DNA of 36,750 nt, from positions 1 to 36,750 of the forward strand of contig JAGPMH010000016.1 of assembly GCA_018052945.1 (NCBI GenBank). The letters run 5' to 3'. Source of the stretch: Negativicutes bacterium (GTDB taxonomy: Bacteria; Bacillota; Negativicutes; JAGPMH01). Below the pieces are notes generated by a model. It saw nothing but the letters and a program-made list of their open reading frames with translations, searched no databases and had not been told where the DNA came from. Position 1 is the stretch's first letter. Each line of letters begins with the position of its first letter. The translations under genes and the position numbers were made by a program. Shown here one piece after another: positions 8,822-19,853 of the stretch.

Positions 8822-10147
8822 CTAAAACTTATTTTTTCGCAATACCCACCAAGGAGCCATGGATGAATCTTGATGTCCTTTACCAATCCATTCCCAAAAT
8901 ACTGCCAATAAAGTATTGATTTTCGCTGCAAATAAAAACATCGGCATAAATGGTACTAGTCCAAATCTTGATAAATCTTCTTTTTTTCGCTCAGAAACAA
9001 AAATTATCCCAAGCAAATACAGTAAGCAAGTCATCACAAAATAAAAAGAATACACTGCCATTAACAAGGCGATTGCATAATCAGCGGGAAAAACAATAAA
9101 TAGCCAAAAAGTATAGACAAAAACCATCATTGGTAAAACAATATTGGTGAACATGGTCACTAACAATCCATTAAAATTCGCCCAGCCCATCATCGACGGC
9201 GCTATGCTCCGCCAATGTTTACCGATAATGTAAGGATAATCGCCTTCCCATCTTAGCCGTTGTTTGAAAAATTTAGCATAGGTTTCCGGAACATCAGTAA
9301 AACAAATTGCTTCGGGGTCAAACACAATTCTAAATTTTTCTTTTCTATTATTAAAGTAATTTTTAATTCGTAATGTAATATCAAGATCTTCTGCGGTCCC
9401 TGCATCCCAACCTTCGACCAAATTAAGTAGACTACGGCGAAAAATACCAAAGGCGCCGGAAATATTATTGACCATATTAAATTCACTAAGCGCCGTTTTT
9501 GACAGCTGAATTGAATTAAAATATTCAATCGCTTGAAAACCGGCACAAAAAGTATCAGCAGCATTACGTACTCTTAAGCACCCACTCACCGCTACTACTT
9601 CAGGATCAACAAAGTGCCTCGTAACCCGCTCTAACATATTGTTATCAAAAGAACTATCACCATCAACTTTAACAACAATCTCGCCGGTAACAAAATTCAA
9701 ACCTAAATTGCTACTAGACACTACACCACCGCGTTGCCATTTCGGAATAACAGAAATGGTACGGTTGTTATATTGCACCGCCAGTTTTTGCAATTCTTCA
9801 GCAACTTTCAAAGTACTCTTATTGATATACGCACCATCAATCACCAATAAAATTTGTAATTTGCCGGGATATAGCTGTTCCAGTAATGAAAGCACAGTCT
9901 TTTCAATTTCTCGGCCTTCATTATAGCAAGTTACAATACAAGAGACACTAGGAAAAAAGTCAATTCTCGGACCTTCTTGCTTTCTTCTTAGCACATATTT
10001 AAATAATCCTAAAAATATGAACAAATTCCACGGTAATTCAAAAAAAACTACCATTGGTAAAACCAACAGTATCACTGTCATATAACCTTGATTGTAAAAA
10101 GGAAGTACTAAAAAATTATAGAGATGAAATAAAATACCTTCCAACAT
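8822..10147 (-). CDS. Processive family-2 glycosyltransferase, predicted polysaccharide synthase
   Basis: A GT2 membrane enzyme related to PgaC/IcaA, hyaluronan and cellulose synthases. Counting from an upstream in-frame GTG at 10162, it has hydrophobic segments at about 12-55, the nucleotide-sugar site TCYNEG (78-83), the DxD motif VDGDS (165-170), the general-base ED in TAEDLD (256-261) and the processivity motif QRLRW (301-305). Three to four C-terminal membrane segments follow (about 330-420). Together these predict polymerisation from UDP-sugars coupled to export through the inner membrane; the sugar is not known. The start could be ATG 10147 (given here) or GTG 10162; neither has a strong ribosome site. 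It follows the zinc-ribbon gene by 6-21 bp and belongs with the HlyD and TolC-like genes upstream. Confidence 0.9.
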   Translation of the reverse strand: MLEGILFHLYNFLVLPFYNQGYMTVILLVLPMVVFFELPWNLFIFLGLFKYVLRRKQEGPRIDFFPSVSCIVTCYNEGREIEKTVLSLLEQLYPGKLQILLVIDGAYINKSTLKVAEELQKLAVQYNNRTISVIPKWQRGGVVSSSNLGLNFVTGEIVVKVDGDSSFDNNMLERVTRHFVDPEVVAVSGCLRVRNAADTFCAGFQAIEYFNSIQLSKTALSEFNMVNNISGAFGIFRRSLLNLVEGWDAGTAEDLDITLRIKNYFNNRKEKFRIVFDPEAICFTDVPETYAKFFKQRLRWEGDYPYIIGKHWRSIAPSMMGWANFNGLLVTMFTNIVLPMMVFVYTFWLFIVFPADYAIALLMAVYSFYFVMTCLLYLLGIIFVSERKKEDLSRFGLVPFMPMFLFAAKINTLLAVFWEWIGKGHQDSSMAPWWVLRKNKF

Positions 10148-10168
10148 AACTAGTTCTAGCACCTAAAA

Positions 10169-11632
10169 CTAAAACCCAGCTTCATACTCAGTCAACAGTT
10201 TTTCGGCAATTGGAACTTGTTGAGCTTGTTCAGTTGGTATGGAAAAACATTTTACTGCTACTCTGATTTGCGAATTAGTTTCTGTCGACACCATCTGTGC
10301 CAAATTTTCAATTCTAGCGGCCAGAATTTCACCTCCTTCGGTATTAGTTCTTGGTAACATCACCCAAGAGACATTCTTACTGGTATTAGTAGTGATATCG
10401 GTATTACGAACTAATTCTCGTACTCTCGCACTAAGTTCCGCTATAACGTCATTTGCTTTCGGCAAATATGCAACTTCATCCAAATCCTTTGCGCTAATTA
10501 TTTTAATACAAATCAGCGTAAATTCAGCATCTTGATACCGTTGCTTCATTTGAAGCATCCAGTCAATCATTTGATAAAAATATAATGGTAATACATTTCT
10601 TTTATCATCAAATAAAGCTATTTCCAAATTAACATCACCCAGTTGCGCCGCTCTCATTCCTTTAGCAGAAATAGCATAGTTATAAATAGGTCGAGCTATC
10701 AAATCTTCAGCTGAAGATTTTTCCTGACAATTTAAGCAACTAGCTTTTATCTGCGGTTCAATAAATTTACCATGGCAATCATTACATTGATAACTTTCTA
10801 ACGGTCTATCATAATCAACCCCAATATGTCTTAACGTACTTTTACAGCGTTGGCAGACTAATTGATAACCTTTTTGAAACTCTTCTTCCGGTGCTACATT
10901 GGCACAAGTAAAGCAATGAATCATTTTATGTTTGCTAAAGTTTATACTGCCACATAATGGACACATATCAATGAAATTTAAGTTTCCGGTCATACAATAT
11001 GGACAATACCTAACTCTATCGACTAGTTGTTTTTCCACTAGTAGCCCATGATTTAACAAATAATTAAGCCACTGGACAGAGCTTTCTTCTTTATGGTTTG
11101 ATTTATCATTTTCATCACAATTAGAGCGAAATGTTCGATGTACTTCATTGCAAAAGCGACCTAGTAGCGCTGCTGTCATATACTGATAAAGCCACGGAGA
11201 AGAAGGCAATAGTTGCGGTTTTAATAAATATTCTTCACCTCTGGCAAACAGAAAGGTTAATAATCTTAAATCACTGCTTGCTGAATTTTTTTCAATGGAT
11301 AACAAGTTTAGGCGATCTAAAATAACATTACCTTGTGCTAAAATTTCACTTTTACTATTTTCTATCCCATCACTGCAATAATCTAACTCTCCTACTGAGG
11401 TGGTAAAGTACAGTGGACAAGCATACAACAATTTTGATTTACGAAAGTCACACACTAATTTTAAAATTTTAGCTTCATAACAATCTGCAATATTTATACC
11501 ATCTACAACAACAATGACCGGCTCTGTTATATTTTTAGTTAATTCTTCCACGGAATGAAAGGTTTGTGCAAAATCTTCTGTTGCTAATAATGTTTTTGTA
11601 GCATCTAATGTTATCCGATATAACTTATTCAT
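10169..11632 (-). CDS. Multi-zinc-ribbon protein with a degenerate GGDEF-like C-terminal domain
   Basis: A 487-residue soluble protein of unassigned function. Residues 1-200 are helical/alpha-beta without a firm match. Residues 210-302 carry six CxxC pairs (210/213, 224/227, 240/243, 260/263, 283/286, 299/302), enough for about three zinc ribbons and reminiscent of the TackOD1 zinc-ribbon output domain. Residues about 345-470 follow the GGDEF order: FTLICIKI, VIAELSARVRELVRNTD, then WVMLP and a long helix ending in VAVKCF. SKNVSW stands where GG(D/E)EF should be, so cyclase activity is not expected. I infer a sensor or c-di-GMP-like effector subunit controlling the adjacent glycosyltransferase. 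The ATG start has AGGAGGT upstream. Domain names come from pattern reading, not from a search. Confidence 0.7.
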   Translation of the reverse strand: MNKLYRITLDATKTLLATEDFAQTFHSVEELTKNITEPVIVVVDGINIADCYEAKILKLVCDFRKSKLLYACPLYFTTSVGELDYCSDGIENSKSEILAQGNVILDRLNLLSIEKNSASSDLRLLTFLFARGEEYLLKPQLLPSSPWLYQYMTAALLGRFCNEVHRTFRSNCDENDKSNHKEESSVQWLNYLLNHGLLVEKQLVDRVRYCPYCMTGNLNFIDMCPLCGSINFSKHKMIHCFTCANVAPEEEFQKGYQLVCQRCKSTLRHIGVDYDRPLESYQCNDCHGKFIEPQIKASCLNCQEKSSAEDLIARPIYNYAISAKGMRAAQLGDVNLEIALFDDKRNVLPLYFYQMIDWMLQMKQRYQDAEFTLICIKIISAKDLDEVAYLPKANDVIAELSARVRELVRNTDITTNTSKNVSWVMLPRTNTEGGEILAARIENLAQMVSTETNSQIRVAVKCFSIPTEQAQQVPIAEKLLTEYEAGF

Positions 11633-11644
11633 TAATATTACCTC

Positions 11645-12685
11645 CTAATTCCACGCTACTACTACCGGCAGTCCATCCACAATTTCCTCAGGATTTAGTT
11701 TTTCGTCAATTTTCAAAAATACATTGATACCTCTCATACTATTAGGATAAATAGTATTGGATATTCCCATCGGCACTGTAGAGGCACTAATTGGTTGTTC
11801 CACCACCACTGCTGTAACAGTTCTATTACTACCTAAAATTTTAACTTTAGCACCGGTGCCTAAACTAATTTTTTTAAAATCTTCCGGCTCTACATAAACA
11901 CTGACATAAACATTTTCGGTTTTTGCTAAAATTGCCAAAGGCTCTCCGGCACTAAAAGTCTGCCCAACATTAACTAAAATAGTGTTAATTTGACCACCAA
12001 TACCGGTGTTTATTTGAGCATTATTATCCAAAAACTTAGTTAAGCTTTTAATGCTTTCATCTACTTGAATTTTACGAACTTCATTACTAAGCACCGGAGC
12101 TGCGACCGGCGTTACATCAGCCGCTGCCAAAGCCGCCTTTAACTCATTATACTTAGCATTGACTTGCTCGTATTCAGCTCTGGTTGCTGCTCCTTTAGCC
12201 ATTAAGGCGCCTGTATCATTGCGTAATTTTTCATAATAAGCAACACTATTAGAAATCGCTGAAATTTGTTGGTAATTTTTATCAACGGTTGTACCACCAC
12301 CAATATTACCGGTTACTAACGCATTTTTCTCCGCTTCCAATAAAGCTATTTGCTCTAGTCGCCCCGTTGGAATAATCTTCTTATACGTCAACAGCAAGCT
12401 ATTAGGCGCTATCATGTCACCACGTTTTCCGGCAATACTCTCAATAGTTCCGCCTTCATTAGCATTAACAACGACTTTTTCTAAATAAATTGTTCCCGGC
12501 GATCTGACAAATAGCCACTCGCTGATAATTTTTCCGGAAAAATAAACAAACGGTAGGGCAATAATAATTAATACTAACCACCATTTTAATTGTGGGAAAA
12601 TTCGTTTCGCATTACCATAAGGGATTTTTATATTGTTCTTTACTGTGGCATCAGAGTTTTTATTGTTGGAAAATGATATTTTCAT
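11645..12685 (-). CDS. HlyD-family periplasmic adaptor (membrane fusion) protein
   Basis: Inner-membrane-anchored adaptor expected to bridge an inner-membrane exporter or synthase to a TolC-type duct. It has one N-terminal membrane segment (about residues 35-57), a first lipoyl half (VNANEGGTIESIAGKRGDMI), a helical hairpin (about 100-190), a second lipoyl half (IGGQINTILVNVGQTFSAGEPLAIL) and a beta-barrel domain ending near 345. ATG 12685 is preferred: GAGGGG lies nine bases upstream, and an in-frame TTG at 12691 is too close to it. The start lies two bases past the TGA of the TolC-like gene and the next gene follows by 12 bp. No ABC or RND transporter is adjacent, so the glycosyltransferase is the likely inner-membrane partner, as with Alg44-like adaptors in alginate export. 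Confidence 0.88.
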   Translation of the reverse strand: MKISFSNNKNSDATVKNNIKIPYGNAKRIFPQLKWWLVLIIIALPFVYFSGKIISEWLFVRSPGTIYLEKVVVNANEGGTIESIAGKRGDMIAPNSLLLTYKKIIPTGRLEQIALLEAEKNALVTGNIGGGTTVDKNYQQISAISNSVAYYEKLRNDTGALMAKGAATRAEYEQVNAKYNELKAALAAADVTPVAAPVLSNEVRKIQVDESIKSLTKFLDNNAQINTGIGGQINTILVNVGQTFSAGEPLAILAKTENVYVSVYVEPEDFKKISLGTGAKVKILGSNRTVTAVVVEQPISASTVPMGISNTIYPNSMRGINVFLKIDEKLNPEEIVDGLPVVVAWN

Positions 12686-12687
12686 AA

Positions 12688-14928
12688 TCAATCACCCCTC
12701 TTATAATCTTCCCAAGATTGAATATAAATGGCTTTCAGACCAATATGGTTTAACTCCTGCTCAATTTTTTGTACTGCATTGATAAAGTCAGTATGATCTA
12801 AGCTACTATAAGCTTCACCTTGATTAATATTTTGCTCAACACTTTGAGCCAAGGCTATATTAAGACCGTTCGTTTTATCAATAATATTTTTCATAGTAGT
12901 TATCACAGTTTGTGCATTGTTAGAATACAGCATTACAACTATTTCTTTTAAATTAAGCTTTTGTAAGGTCATTCTATCTTTTTCGCTTAAATTTGTTAGA
13001 TATCGCGGATGAATTGAGATTGATAATTCCTTTTTAGTTACGCTCCGCACTTTTTCAATAACATCTAGCAGTAAATTAAAACCATTTTCATTATTAGCTA
13101 ACACTGCATCCGGTTCAATATCAAGATGAATTTCTTTAAATTCAAATTTTTCCATTTCTTTAGTGAGATCTATTAGTTCAGCCTGATGCTCCGGCAATAA
13201 CCATGCTGAGTCACCTAATAATAATCCAACCTCCAGCCCATTAGCTTCCGCTTTTTTCAACAAATCTTTTAATTTTTGTTGGACTGGCGCTGCTTGTAAT
13301 TGCTTTATTTCATCTTTATTAAACGATAATAATATTTTTTTAATCCCATTTTGCTGTAATTTAGCTATTTCAACGCCTTGTGAAATACTATTTAAAAAGG
13401 GAGCTGCTTGCCAAACATAAGTGCCAACTTTTAAGTTATTACTTATATTTTTGTTATTACTACTGACAATATTATTAATCCCCACCTCTGGGAACGTAAG
13501 TTTTGGTAAGTTACTAAAATCTAGCGGATTTTCCGTCACCAATTTAAAGTCATTAATATCAAGCCAAGCAAAATTCAATAAATTTCCTCTATTGACATTG
13601 CTACTATTAAGAATATAACTTTCATCGGCTTCACTACTTAAGCCGTTAGGGTAAACGAAGCTGACAACATCAATAGCAGCCGCTAAGAAGGTTTCTTCAC
13701 GATTTAATAAATCTGTCGCCATCCGATAATATTGCGACTTGCTATTTTGAAATTGCTCAAAAGTATCACCCGGTAAAACTTTATGCCGTAATTTTTTTTC
13801 TCTAATGTCTTCTGCCAAAACAGTCAACCGTGCAATTTTGGAGTTAACATCCATTGCAGCAAATTTAGCAGTTAAAATAGCTTCTCTGACGCGACCATTC
13901 AAAGTCATCTCGATATAGTCTTGTTGCATCTTTGCACTAAGCAGTTGATTTTCTGCAATGATTTTATTTTGATCCTTTTTGCCAATAGTCCCAAAAGGTT
14001 CTGTTACATTTATTGCAATATAAGCTCCGGTACCGCTAGCACCAGGATAATCTTTGCTAACAGTTCCCCCAATAACTAAATTCCCTTCAGTATTGAGCTG
14101 TTTATATTGCCTTAGCATTTTTTGATATTGCTCTACTAATTTTGCTTGCAACTGAAATTCAGGATAATTATCCACAGCAAAAGTCTTGCCCGTTAACAGC
14201 GGTAATTTAGGTTCTTCGAGCGTTTCTGCTACTTGCCACTGACAACCGGTTGCTAAATTAATAATTTGTAACGCTTGACTTTGTTTTAGCTGCATTGCCA
14301 CAAGATCACGCTTAACCTCTTCATAAATTGTCAAAAATTCCAATTTATCGACCGGTAATAACAAACCTTGCTTTTGTCGTTCTTCTAGCAATTTACTGGT
14401 AGCAACTTCAGTACTCAAAAATTGCTTGGCCAATTTTTCTTTTTGTTGTTCAATCCACAACGAAGCATAGGCCTTGCGAACAGCCACCAAATTATTTAAA
14501 TTCACTAATTTGGCAAAATATTGCGAGTTGAACACTGTATTTTCCGACTGCATAATATCAATTTTTTCTTTGTTTTTACTACCTAATAGTGGTAGTACCA
14601 ATCCGCCGGTAAAACTCAATTTATTATAACTATGCATCTGTGTACTAGTATCGGTAAGAGGTTCATTATTAGCGCCATAAGTTATTGTCCCAAATAATTT
14701 AGCGCCACTGCGTTGTTGTGCTAACACTAGCTTAGCCTCATCATTTGATAAATTTGCCATTGCAATAGATAGCGCTAAACCATTATCCAACTTTTCTTCG
14801 ATCTGTTGTAATGATGACAGCTTAACAGTCGCGACCGGTGCTGCGGTCGCAACTGTCATAACCAAATTACCAGACATTGCAAACACTACTGCTACTACGG
14901 TACTTATTACTTTATGCCATTTGACCAC
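12688..14928 (-). CDS. TolC-like outer-membrane protein fused to a TIM-barrel (glycoside-hydrolase-like) domain
   Basis: The 746-residue protein begins with a signal peptide (about 1-29, ending VATAA). Residues about 45-430 resemble outer-membrane efflux (TolC) proteins: long coiled-coil helices (for example 150-225 and 320-410) with two short beta-rich parts (76-115 and 282-312). A linker leads to an alternating beta/alpha region at about 500-746 with strands KILLSF, EVGLLLGD, EIHLDIEP (599-606), LSISIHP, EIVVMLYS, IALAQS and AIYIQSW, which I read as a TIM barrel. The acidic LDIE strand recalls, but does not match, the GH18 DxxDxDxE catalytic strand. A duct fused to a putative polysaccharide hydrolase or binding domain is unusual. 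The GTG start has AGGGGG eight bases upstream; uvrA ends 23 bp before it. Confidence 0.8.
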   Translation of the reverse strand: MVKWHKVISTVVAVVFAMSGNLVMTVATAAPVATVKLSSLQQIEEKLDNGLALSIAMANLSNDEAKLVLAQQRSGAKLFGTITYGANNEPLTDTSTQMHSYNKLSFTGGLVLPLLGSKNKEKIDIMQSENTVFNSQYFAKLVNLNNLVAVRKAYASLWIEQQKEKLAKQFLSTEVATSKLLEERQKQGLLLPVDKLEFLTIYEEVKRDLVAMQLKQSQALQIINLATGCQWQVAETLEEPKLPLLTGKTFAVDNYPEFQLQAKLVEQYQKMLRQYKQLNTEGNLVIGGTVSKDYPGASGTGAYIAINVTEPFGTIGKKDQNKIIAENQLLSAKMQQDYIEMTLNGRVREAILTAKFAAMDVNSKIARLTVLAEDIREKKLRHKVLPGDTFEQFQNSKSQYYRMATDLLNREETFLAAAIDVVSFVYPNGLSSEADESYILNSSNVNRGNLLNFAWLDINDFKLVTENPLDFSNLPKLTFPEVGINNIVSSNNKNISNNLKVGTYVWQAAPFLNSISQGVEIAKLQQNGIKKILLSFNKDEIKQLQAAPVQQKLKDLLKKAEANGLEVGLLLGDSAWLLPEHQAELIDLTKEMEKFEFKEIHLDIEPDAVLANNENGFNLLLDVIEKVRSVTKKELSISIHPRYLTNLSEKDRMTLQKLNLKEIVVMLYSNNAQTVITTMKNIIDKTNGLNIALAQSVEQNINQGEAYSSLDHTDFINAVQKIEQELNHIGLKAIYIQSWEDYKRGD

Positions 14929-14951: not shown

Positions 14952-17783
14952 TTACATACTCAAGCCTTCTTCTAACAATGGTTTTAAAAATTTGCCAGTA
15001 TAAGAAGCTTCAACTGTGGTAATTTCCTCCGGGGTACCTTTAGCGACAATAGTGCCACCACCTTTACCGCCCTCTGGTCCTAAATCAACAACATAGTCCG
15101 CAGTCTTAATAACATCAAGATTATGCTCAATAACAATCACACTATCGCCACCTTCAACTAACTTTTGTAAAACTTCCAATAGTTTATGAATGTCCGCAGT
15201 ATGTAAGCCCGTCGTTGGCTCATCTAAAATATATAATGTTTTTCCGGTACTGCGTTTTGCTAGCTCTGTTGCTAGTTTCACGCGTTGTGCTTCTCCGCCG
15301 GATAAGGTCGTCGCCGGTTGCCCTAGTTTTATATAACCCAACCCAACCTCTTTCAACACTTCCAGTTTTCGATGAATTTTCGGGATATTTTTGAAAAATT
15401 CCACCCCTTCATCTACTACCATATCCAAAACTTGCGCAATGCTTTTCCCTTTGTATTTAACCTCTAAGGTCTCTCTATTATAACGTGCGCCCTTGCAGAC
15501 CTCACATGGTACATAAACATCTGGTAAAAAATGCATTTCTATCTTGATTATACCATCTCCACGACAGGCTTCACAACGCCCACCTTTAACATTAAAGCTA
15601 AATCGCCCCGGCTTATAGCCTCTAATTTTTGCTTCATTAGTCTGACTATATAATTCTCTAATATTATCAAATAACCCGGTATAAGTTGCCGGATTAGAAC
15701 GTGGTGTCCGCCCAATGGGGGACTGATCGACATCAATAATTTTATCAATATGCTCAAAGCCTTTTATCGCTTTATGAGCACCGGCCCGCTGATGATTGCG
15801 ATAAATTATTTTCGCCAAACCTTTATATAATATTTCATTAACCAAGGTACTTTTTCCCGAGCCCGAGACGCCGGTTACAGCCGTAAATAAACCAATCGGA
15901 AATTTTACACTGATATTTTTTAAATTGTTTTCTTTGGCCCCAATAATCTCTAGCCATTTTCCTTGAGCTTTTCTGCGTTTACTTGGTACCGGAATATATT
16001 TTTTGCGACTTAAATATTGTCCAGTTAGCGAATTGTTATTGTCTTTTATTTCTTCAACCGTTCCTTGCGCCACAATATGACCGCCACCAGCTCCTGCCGT
16101 CGGACCAATATCAATAATGTAATCGGCTGCATACATCGTATCTTCATCATGTTCCACGACAATTAAAGTATTACCTAAATCTCTTAAATGTGCCAGCGTT
16201 GCCAACAGCTTGTTATTATCGCGTTGGTGCAACCCAATGCTAGGCTCATCCAAAATATATAACACGCCAACCAATCCCGAACCAATTTGCGTAGCCAATC
16301 TAATGCGCTGCGCCTCTCCACCTGACAATGTACCGGCAGCTCGATCTAGCGTTAGATATTCTAACCCGACATCCAATAAAAAGCCTAGTCTAGCATTAAT
16401 CTCTTTTAAAATCTGTGTGGCAATAATTTTTTCACGTTCCGTAAAAGAAATACTATTTAAAAAATCACGGCATTCCGCAATGGTAAAACAGGTTACTTCG
16501 TAAATATTTTTCCCTGCTATTTTAACCGCCAATGTTTCAGGTTTTAATCTTGCGCCATTACACGCCTTGCAAACTTTTTGCTTCATATATACTTCATACG
16601 CTTCTTTGGCTTCCATGGAATCAGTCTCAACATAACGGCGCTCTAAGATATTCATAACCCCCTCAAAGGGCGAATTATACTCTTTAGTCTCACCATACAT
16701 ATTTTCATAAGAATAACTAAAACTTTCCTCACTGCTGCCGTATAATAAAATGTTTTGAACAGCTTGAGAAAGCTCAGACCATTTATTGTTTATTGAATAA
16801 CCATACTTCTCAACAACTGCATTAATTTGGCACATCGCATAAGAATTAATATTTTTTGATAACGGTAAAAATAACCCTTCACCAATAGTTTTATCAAGGT
16901 CAGGCATTACCAGTTCAAGATCAAATTCATTATCCATTCCTAAGCCACTACAAACCGGACAAGCACCATAGGGGCTATTAAAGGAAAACATTCTAGGGGC
17001 TATTTCCGGCAAAGACAAGCCACAGTCAATACAAGCAAAGTTTTGACTAAACATTAATTCTAATCCATCCAAAACTTGAATTAAGACCATGCCCTGACTT
17101 AAAGCTAAGGCTGTTTCTAATGAATCAGCTAACCGTCCTTCTATTTTGTCTCTAATAACTAATCTATCAACAACAACCTCAATAGTATGTTTTTTGTTTT
17201 TATCCAAGGTTATCTCATCATTAACATCATGCAAAGTACCATCAATTCTCACTCTGACATAACCATCTTTTTTTATCTCATCCAGTAACTTTTTATGTTC
17301 ACCTTTTTTCCCTCTGATAATCGGCGATAATACCAAAACTTTACTTTGGTCTGGTATTAACATAATTTGATCCACCATTTGCTGAACTGTTTGCTTAGCA
17401 ATTTCTTTACCACAATTTGGACAATGCGGTCTACCAGCTCTAGCAAATAATAATCGCAAATAATCATAAATTTCAGTTACTGTGCCAACCGTCGAACGCG
17501 GATTTTTATTAGTGGTTTTTTGATCTATTGATATTGCCGGCGATAATCCTTCAATATAATCAACATCAGGTTTATCCATTTGTCCCAAAAATTGACGAGC
17601 ATAAGCCGATAATGATTCAACATAGCGCCGTTGACCTTCAGCATAAATTGTATCGAAGGCTAAGGATGACTTCCCGGAGCCACTTAACCCCGTTATAACG
17701 ACTAATTTATCACGCGGTATTTCTACATTTATATTTTTTAAATTATGTTCTCTAGCACCTTTAACAATTAATTTGTCTTTCAT
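14952..17783 (-). CDS. uvrA: Excinuclease ABC subunit A
   Basis: Damage-recognition ATPase of nucleotide excision repair. At 943 residues it is full length and contains two ABC modules. The first has Walker [10 protein letters not shown], the second GVSGSGKST; each has a signature LSGGEAQR and a Walker B ([20 protein letters not shown]). Zinc-binding cysteines are present in [13 protein letters not shown]...CPVC and [10 protein letters not shown]...CEVC. It begins 9 bp after uvrB with TAGGTGA before the ATG, so the pair is one operon. No terminator is visible in the 23 bp between uvrA and the TolC-like gene, so transcription should continue into the polysaccharide block. Confidence 0.98.
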
Positions 17784-17791
17784 AATTTCAC

Positions 17792-19831
17792 CTACTTATT
17801 TTTGGCTTTTTTAGCGGGCAATTCGCCTTTTAATTCAATGATCATATCCCGTAAATTAGCAGCTAATTCAAATTGTAAATTTTTTGCGGCAGCTTGCATC
17901 TCTTGTTGCAACTTATCAATTAAATCCAGCTTATCTTTGGGACTTAATTTTCGTCCTTGTTTATTAGTATATTTAGCCGCTGTTTCAGCAACCTTAGTAG
18001 TTTCTATCATATTTTTAATGGTTTTTTGAATGGTCTGCGGAGTAATATTATGTTCAACATTATATTTTTGTTGAATCTCCCGCCGTCTTTTGGTTTCTTC
18101 AATTGCTCTTTTCATTGAGTCAGTAATATTATCAGCATACATAATAACTTTACCATTAGCATTGCGGGCGGCTCTCCCAATCGTTTGAATTAACGAAGTA
18201 TCTGAACGCAAAAATCCTTCTTTGTCCGCATCTAAAATTGCCACCAAGGAAACCTCCGGCAAATCCAGTCCTTCTCGCAATAAGTTAATTCCAATTAAAA
18301 CATCAAAAACACCCATTCTTAAATCTCTAATAATTTCAGCTCGTTCTAACGTTACAATATCAGAGTGTAAATAGCGTACTTTAATGCCCATTTCTTTTAG
18401 ATAGTCAGTCAGATTTTCTGCCATTTTTTTCGTTAAAGTTGTTACTAATACACGTTCTTTTAACGGCAGTCTTAACTTAATTTCTCCTAATAAATCATCC
18501 ATTTGTCCTTGTAATGGCTTAACCACTATGGCAGGATCAATCAGGCCGGTCGGTCTGATAATCTGCTGCACAACCTGACTGGCTTGCTCCAATTCATATT
18601 TAGCCGGCGTAGCAGAAACATAGATAATCTGATTAATTCTCTCATTAAATTCTTCAAAACGTAACGGTCTATTATCAAACGCAGAAGGCAATCTAAAGCC
18701 GTTATTAACTAATGCTTCTTTGCGCGCTCTATCACCGGCATACATTGCTCTAATTTGTGGCAATGTTACATGTGATTCATCAATAACAATTAAAAAGTCA
18801 TCCGGAAAATAGTCAATCAGAGTAAAGGGTGATTCACCCGGTGCTCGTTTTGTTAAATGTCGCGAGTAATTTTCAACCCCTGAGCAATAACCCATTTCTA
18901 GCATCATTTCCAAATCATAACGAGTTCGTTGTTCTAATCTTTGCGCTTCTAATAATTTTCCTTCAGCTTTAAATTTTGCTAAACACTGTTCCAGTTCAGC
19001 CTCAATATCACCGGCTGCACGCAACATATTTTCTTTAGAGGTAACATAATGCGAAGCCGGATAAATGGAAATATGTTTACGCTCTGCCAATATTTCTCCG
19101 GTTAGTGCATCAGTCTCTAAAATCCTTTCAATCTCATCACCAAATAATTCTATTCTCAAGGCTTTTTCATTATACCCTGCCGGAAAAATTTCAATAACAT
19201 CACCACGAACTCTAAACTTGCCTCTGACAAAATTAATATCATTACGCTCGTATTGAATGCTCACCAATTTGCGTAAAATAGCATCACGCTCATAAAACTG
19301 ACCTTGTCTTAACGATAAGACCAACCCCTGATACTCATCCGGTGAACCTAAGCCATAGATGCAAGAAACACTGGCAACAATAATAACATCACGCCGTTCA
19401 AATAAAGAACACGTAGCAGAGTGACGTAATTTATCAATTTCATCATTAATCGAAGCATCTTTTTCAATATAAGTATCAGTATGTGCGATATAGGCTTCCG
19501 GCTGATAATAATCATAATAACTTACAAAATATTCTACGGCATTATCCGGGAAAAACTCTTTAAACTCACTGGCTAATTGTGCTGCCAATGTTTTATTATG
19601 AGCAATTACCAACGTTGGTTTTTGCACTCTTTCAATCGTCTTAGCAATCGTAAAAGTCTTACCGGTACCGGTCGCCCCCAATAAAACCTGACTAATCTGT
19701 CCATGGTCAAGCCCTTGCACCAAGCTTTCAATCGCCTTCGGCTGATCGCCCGTTGCAACAAACGGAGCTTTAACTTTAAATAAATTTTCGCCGTCCTGAT
19801 AATTTGTCTGTAATTGAGGAACTTTCACCAT
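17792..19831 (-). CDS. uvrB: Excinuclease ABC subunit B
   Basis: Helicase-like subunit that verifies damage after UvrA loading and recruits UvrC. The protein has Walker [11 protein letters not shown], the beta-hairpin [11 protein letters not shown] that inserts between strands, the helicase motifs DESHV, SATP and GRAARN, and a C-terminal UVR motif ([25 protein letters not shown]). I place the start at ATG 19831 because GGAGGT at 19841-19836 is its ribosome site; an in-frame TTG at 19843 overlaps that site. It starts about 22 bp after the ctpA stop and is followed by uvrA. I saw no SOS-type (GAAC-N4-GTTC) operator in the short upstream gaps. Confidence 0.97.
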
Positions 19832-19853
19832 AACGACCTCCAAAAACTGTAAA

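Follow-up and report, generated by a model that had tools for sequence, protein, structure and literature searches.

A TolC-type outer-membrane duct fused to a GH18-like TIM barrel in a putative polysaccharide secretion operon of a Negativicutes bacterium

Known systems and the locus compared

The Pel system (PelD, PelA, PelB) combines a degenerate-GGDEF receptor bearing an I-site with a periplasmic TIM-barrel hydrolase, both of which resemble components discussed here, but it relies on a different synthase family, has no HlyD or TolC protein and keeps its hydrolase unfused to the pore. In the PNAG system (PgaA-D), PgaA is a TPR-barrel pore, PgaC is a GT2 enzyme like the one encoded at the present locus, and PgaB is a separate protein that carries a deacetylase in addition to its C-terminal TIM barrel. 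The BcsZ cellulase belongs to GH8, and the BgsA/BgsB system is under c-di-GMP control, as is proposed here. BgsA and BgsB of Sinorhizobium/Ensifer, a GT2 paired with a membrane-fusion protein as at this locus, make a mixed-linkage beta-glucan, and the passages that describe them present neither a TackOD1 protein nor a dedicated duct-hydrolase (PMC7902896). The cyanobacterial XcsAB-TolC cellulose secretion system also joins a GT2 synthase, an HlyD-like adaptor and a TolC-like outer-membrane duct; the passages of PMC12430437 that deal with it (citing Maeda et al. 2018) treat it as a proposed model that still awaits experimental proof and whose components are dispersed across the genome. As portrayed there, the glucanase XcsC is a separate protein, control involves a PilZ domain and no single operon contains the synthase, the adaptor and TolC together, whereas in the locus described here the duct itself bears a hydrolase-like barrel, all components are linked and control would be exerted by a TackOD1 protein with a degenerate GGDEF domain. 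A periplasmic hydrolase joined to an outer-membrane polysaccharide pore has been reported in Zymomonas (BcsZC; PMC7112194), so that the initial annotation, which regarded a hydrolase-duct fusion as a new architecture, overstated the case; BcsZC unites a BcsC-type pore with the BcsZ cellulase, in contrast to the TolC-type channel and GH18-like barrel found here. Searches of openly available literature found no description of this latter combination, which is weak evidence for its absence.

The window, the whole stretch of 36,750 nucleotides analysed (contig JAGPMH010000016.1, assembly GCA_018052945.1), contains on its minus strand a gene with a GTG start (12688..14928), supported by the list of open reading frames and by homologues, that encodes a 746-residue protein in a single, uninterrupted frame. 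By inspection, residues ~1-30 (14839..14928, minus) form a putative signal peptide, with a basic, Lys-containing start, a hydrophobic stretch and an AxA-type cleavage-like site (ATAA/AP). The start of the next gene, which encodes a 348-residue HlyD-family periplasmic adaptor (11645..12691, minus; Pfam HlyD_3, E 4.6e-8) and adjoins the fusion in every homologous locus, overlaps the fusion stop by 4 bases. It is followed on the same strand by genes for a TackOD1 zinc-ribbon protein with a degenerate GGDEF domain (10169..11632; Pfam TackOD1, E 6.1e-54, and GGDEF, E 0.0035) and for a processive GT2 polysaccharide synthase with hydrophobic segments (8822..10162; Pfam GT2, E 1.6e-24). The polysaccharide setting assumed in the initial annotation is supported by these neighbours. 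On the upstream side, uvrA ends 23 bases ahead of the fusion gene and uvrB also precedes it on the same strand (14952-19843); read-through from uvrBA into the polysaccharide operon may occur.

Searches of Pfam and NCBIfam gave no confident match for the 746-residue protein; a weak match to DUF3391 (Pfam, E 0.023) was taken as chance, and the Pfam OEP model scored below its cut-off (E 0.79). The same OEP model matches five of six homologues at E values up to 1, the best being 2.2e-9. The full-length AlphaFold2 model, built from 3 sequences, reaches only moderate confidence (mean pLDDT 54.6) and displays, over residues ~37-434 (13627..14820, minus), the TolC pattern of an internal repeat of long helices and strands. 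This region superposes on OprM, CusC, MtrE and TolC-type channels with Z scores of 15-17; the initial annotation had likewise placed a signal peptide and a TolC-like region (45-430) in one frame. The fusion protein is modelled as a TolC-type outer-membrane factor that would assemble into a trimeric channel. Residues ~435-497 (13438..13626, minus) are weakly conserved and have a pLDDT of ~35 or less. TolC C-termini are periplasmic, and this low-confidence linker of ~60 residues means that the C-terminal barrel could sit anywhere around the periplasmic half of the duct; the duct entrance, suggested in the initial annotation, would be one candidate position among these.

The GH18-like barrel and its conserved mouth

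The C-terminal region, residues 498-746 (12691..13437, minus), displays alternating beta/alpha elements from residue 503 onwards in the full-length model, where it already resembles TIM-barrel glycosidases, the best being the GH18 chitinase 6k7z (Z 17.0). Modelled alone from 5 sequences, the domain reaches a pLDDT of 86.8 and a pTM of 0.87 and adopts a complete eight-stranded TIM barrel with regular beta/alpha alternation. The best structural match is again GH18 6k7z (Z score of 17.5 and rmsd of 3.5 over 222 aligned residues), followed by Cwp19 (Z 16.8) and the chitinase-like domain 4wiw (Z 16.7), then by GH84, GH20 and PgaB near 16; SleL reaches Z 15.6. Many other barrels lie just 1-2 Z units lower and the Foldseek list mixes many barrel families, so that structure alone cannot fix the family.

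The motif L602-D603-x-E605 follows strand 4 of the barrel, and its putative acid pair, D603 and E605 (13114..13122, minus), is invariant in the six homologues, even in that of Aeromonas, whose overall identity is 22%. The 48 positions at the C-terminal strand ends hold 14 of the 18 invariant polar or Tyr/Trp columns, while the 48 positions of the opposite barrel face hold none of the 18 (hypergeometric p = 2.7e-8). At the C-terminal mouth of the barrel, D603 and E605 are thus accompanied by a further 12 polar or aromatic residues that do not vary. The initial annotation had suggested a glycoside hydrolase-like barrel at residues 500-746 with an acidic LDIE strand, and had asked whether the acidic residues near 603-605 sit at its mouth; the two outcomes named there as speaking against it, a missing barrel and unconserved acids, were looked for and neither was observed.

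Sequence searches with the barrel returned no significant Pfam or PDB match, PF00704 matched none of the six homologues, and a search of PDB with the barrel family gave weak, unrelated matches with a best E of 0.09. Profile comparison was more informative. Against a GH18 profile for which related genomes supplied 23 PF00704 proteins, hhalign gave the barrel family a score of 41.9 (P 5.7e-5) at a moderate probability of 66%, while the reversed profile and 8 shuffles scored 11-15 and three unrelated operon families 14-20. GHL10 (score 32, its alignment stopping before the E605 position), GH114 (19) and the single-sequence C-terminus of E. coli PgaB (GH153; score 18.0, P 0.12, no detectable profile match despite a structural Z of ~16) all fell below the value of 42 for GH18 and are less likely families for the barrel. 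The alignment places D603xE605 on the DxE of GH18 and M666xY668, a Met-x-Tyr on beta 6 that is invariant in the six homologues, on the GH18 MxY feature. W739, located after beta 8, is also invariant and, from its position, may correspond to the Trp on beta 8 of GH18; it lies beyond the hhalign match.

Structure and profile comparison both place the barrel closest to GH18. D603xE605 is all that is kept of the full GH18 signature on beta 4, DxxDxDxE: an invariant His601 stands where the middle Asp would be, and the position of the first Asp, 598, is variable. The domain is for this reason termed GH18-like and is not assigned to GH18 itself. With His601 at this site, activity may be altered or lost; the barrel is described here as a putative hydrolase.

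Spread of the fusion and its partner proteins

Of the 380 genomes of the class, 4 carry the fusion gene, counting that of the window; it is also present in a metagenome-assembled genome labelled Oscillospiraceae and on two Aeromonas caviae plasmids, the homologues in other Bacillota sharing 37-43% identity. An assembly artefact or chance fusion was ruled out by this recurrence (in G016, G068 and G331, the Oscillospiraceae-labelled genome and the Aeromonas plasmids). Of the split or fused homologues that the initial annotation proposed to look for, fused forms were thus found in four other genomes and on the two plasmids, while stand-alone barrels were found in none of the 380 genomes of the class, among which the barrel is confined to this polysaccharide operon. 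IMG/VR scans with two family members and searches of E. coli genomes gave no match.

The genes for HlyD, TackOD1-GGDEF and GT2 are linked to the fusion in all complete loci (L017, L069, L070, L016 and Aeromonas L018), although in L016 the GT2 gene runs off the contig end. Gene order is fusion, HlyD, TackOD1-GGDEF and GT2 in Bacillota, and TackOD1-GGDEF, GT2, fusion and HlyD in Aeromonas. The A. caviae operon on pKAM329_3 (L018:2289-8111) has 68% G+C, compared with 54-61% elsewhere on this small mobilizable plasmid, and has the appearance of cargo that was picked up from a donor of high G+C; the same four genes are found on pKAM345_3 (L010/L015). A core of TackOD1, GT2 and HlyD without the fusion occurs on plasmids of Plesiomonas, Rhodobacteraceae bacterium M382, Alisedimentitalea and Aminobacter and, by reading of open reading frames, in Photobacterium. 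These cores presumably use another TolC, and their occurrence in several Proteobacteria indicates that the system as such does not depend on the barrel. In two Rhodobacterales plasmids galE follows the three genes (L035:11565-12575, L036:11564-12574), a hint of galactose or GalNAc in the polymer.

The GT2 synthase of the window has the motifs DGD, TAEDLD and QRLRW; the DGD/TAED and QRLRW motifs are conserved, the last corresponding to the QxxRW of processive synthases. Its kinship is with PgaC and NodC: the nearest NCBIfam model is PgaC_IcaA (E 4.5e-41, below that model's cut-off), and hyaluronan synthase is among the PDB matches. The C-terminal part of the TackOD1 protein is a degenerate GGDEF domain with SKNVS at the GGDEF position and a retained RNTD I-site. 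Copies from Bacillota, Aeromonas, Plesiomonas and Photobacterium have the RxxD five residues ahead of the lost GGDEF motif, as is the case for the c-di-GMP I-site of PleD and PelD; alignment of the Aminobacter and Rhodobacteraceae copies showed that RxxD is not kept there. The protein is, on these motifs, a candidate c-di-GMP receptor. The window's genome encodes 20 GGDEF domains above the curated cut-off within 1.64 Mb, many for a genome of this size, as well as an Omp85 outer-membrane assembly protein, and c-di-GMP signalling and an outer membrane are therefore likely to be present. The function of TackOD1 has been described as obscure (PMC5847659). In both Proteobacteria and Bacillota, TackOD1 genes are immediate neighbours of GT2 and HlyD genes (window 10169-11632; L033, L035, L036, L037), a neighbourhood that suggests a polysaccharide role for TackOD1 in bacteria.

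Proposed machine and alternative readings

The four genes running from 14928 to 8822 on the minus strand probably encode a c-di-GMP-gated, synthase-dependent tripartite polysaccharide secretion machine whose duct carries a fused periplasmic hydrolase-like domain. In such a machine the GT2 would polymerise a beta-linked polymer and extrude it across the inner membrane. This polymer plausibly contains N-acetylhexosamine, which agrees with the kinship of the GT2 to PgaC/NodC and that of the barrel to N-acetylhexosaminide hydrolases. The TackOD1/degenerate-GGDEF protein would sense c-di-GMP through its I-site and activate the synthase, the HlyD protein would span the periplasm and a TolC-type trimer would form the outer-membrane exit duct, with one GH18-like barrel per subunit facing the periplasm. 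There the barrel may cut, edit or grip the polymer and so determine how long the chains become or remove those that have stalled.

Whether the barrel cuts or grips bears on a different reading, in which it binds the polymer without catalysis, as a pseudo-hydrolase that steers the chain into the duct or gates its entry. Hydrolase-like domains can serve as carbohydrate-binding modules, the replacement of the GH18 middle Asp by His601 with a variable first Asp would fit a loss of catalysis, and the conserved Y504, W506, W576 and W739 could stack on sugars. However, the invariance of D603, E605 and twelve other mouth residues from Bacillota to Aeromonas is more typical of an active enzyme, and a purely binding role appears rather unlikely. 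An action on peptidoglycan, opening the wall locally for passage or assembly of the TolC trimer or adaptor, is distinctly improbable: although Cwp19 and the spore-cortex enzyme SleL, both peptidoglycan-acting, are among the closest structures and GH18 genes are numerous in relatives within the class, ordinary TolC channels do without a domain of this kind, and the restriction of the barrel to this operon in the 380 genomes of the class also speaks against it.

It is also conceivable, but very unlikely, that the operon exports a small molecule or glycolipid that the GT2 merely glycosylates. Efflux and type 1 secretion commonly employ HlyD and TolC partners, yet the gene set holds no ABC, RND or MFS transporter, and the GT2 bears processive-synthase motifs, with PgaC/NodC as its nearest relatives and hyaluronan synthase among its structural-database matches. 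Polysaccharide secretion thus remains the preferred reading.

A bolder proposal, with slightly less than even odds, is that TackOD1-GGDEF/GT2/HlyD/TolC systems constitute a separate class in which a duct bearing three catalytic GH18-like barrels would unite export and trimming in one protein.

The operon bears on the question of whether polysaccharide synthases can pair with HlyD and TolC-type tripartite conduits: a single operon, found in bacteria that are only distantly related and also on a small plasmid, unites a synthase, an adaptor, a duct and a candidate c-di-GMP receptor. TackOD1 gains a concrete genetic context, and the tie between a hydrolase-like domain and the exit duct allows a direct test of what hydrolases do in polymer export. 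The fusion gene is common to a few distantly related two-membrane bacteria, in which the exit channel apparently comes with a module of its own for trimming or gripping the polymer.
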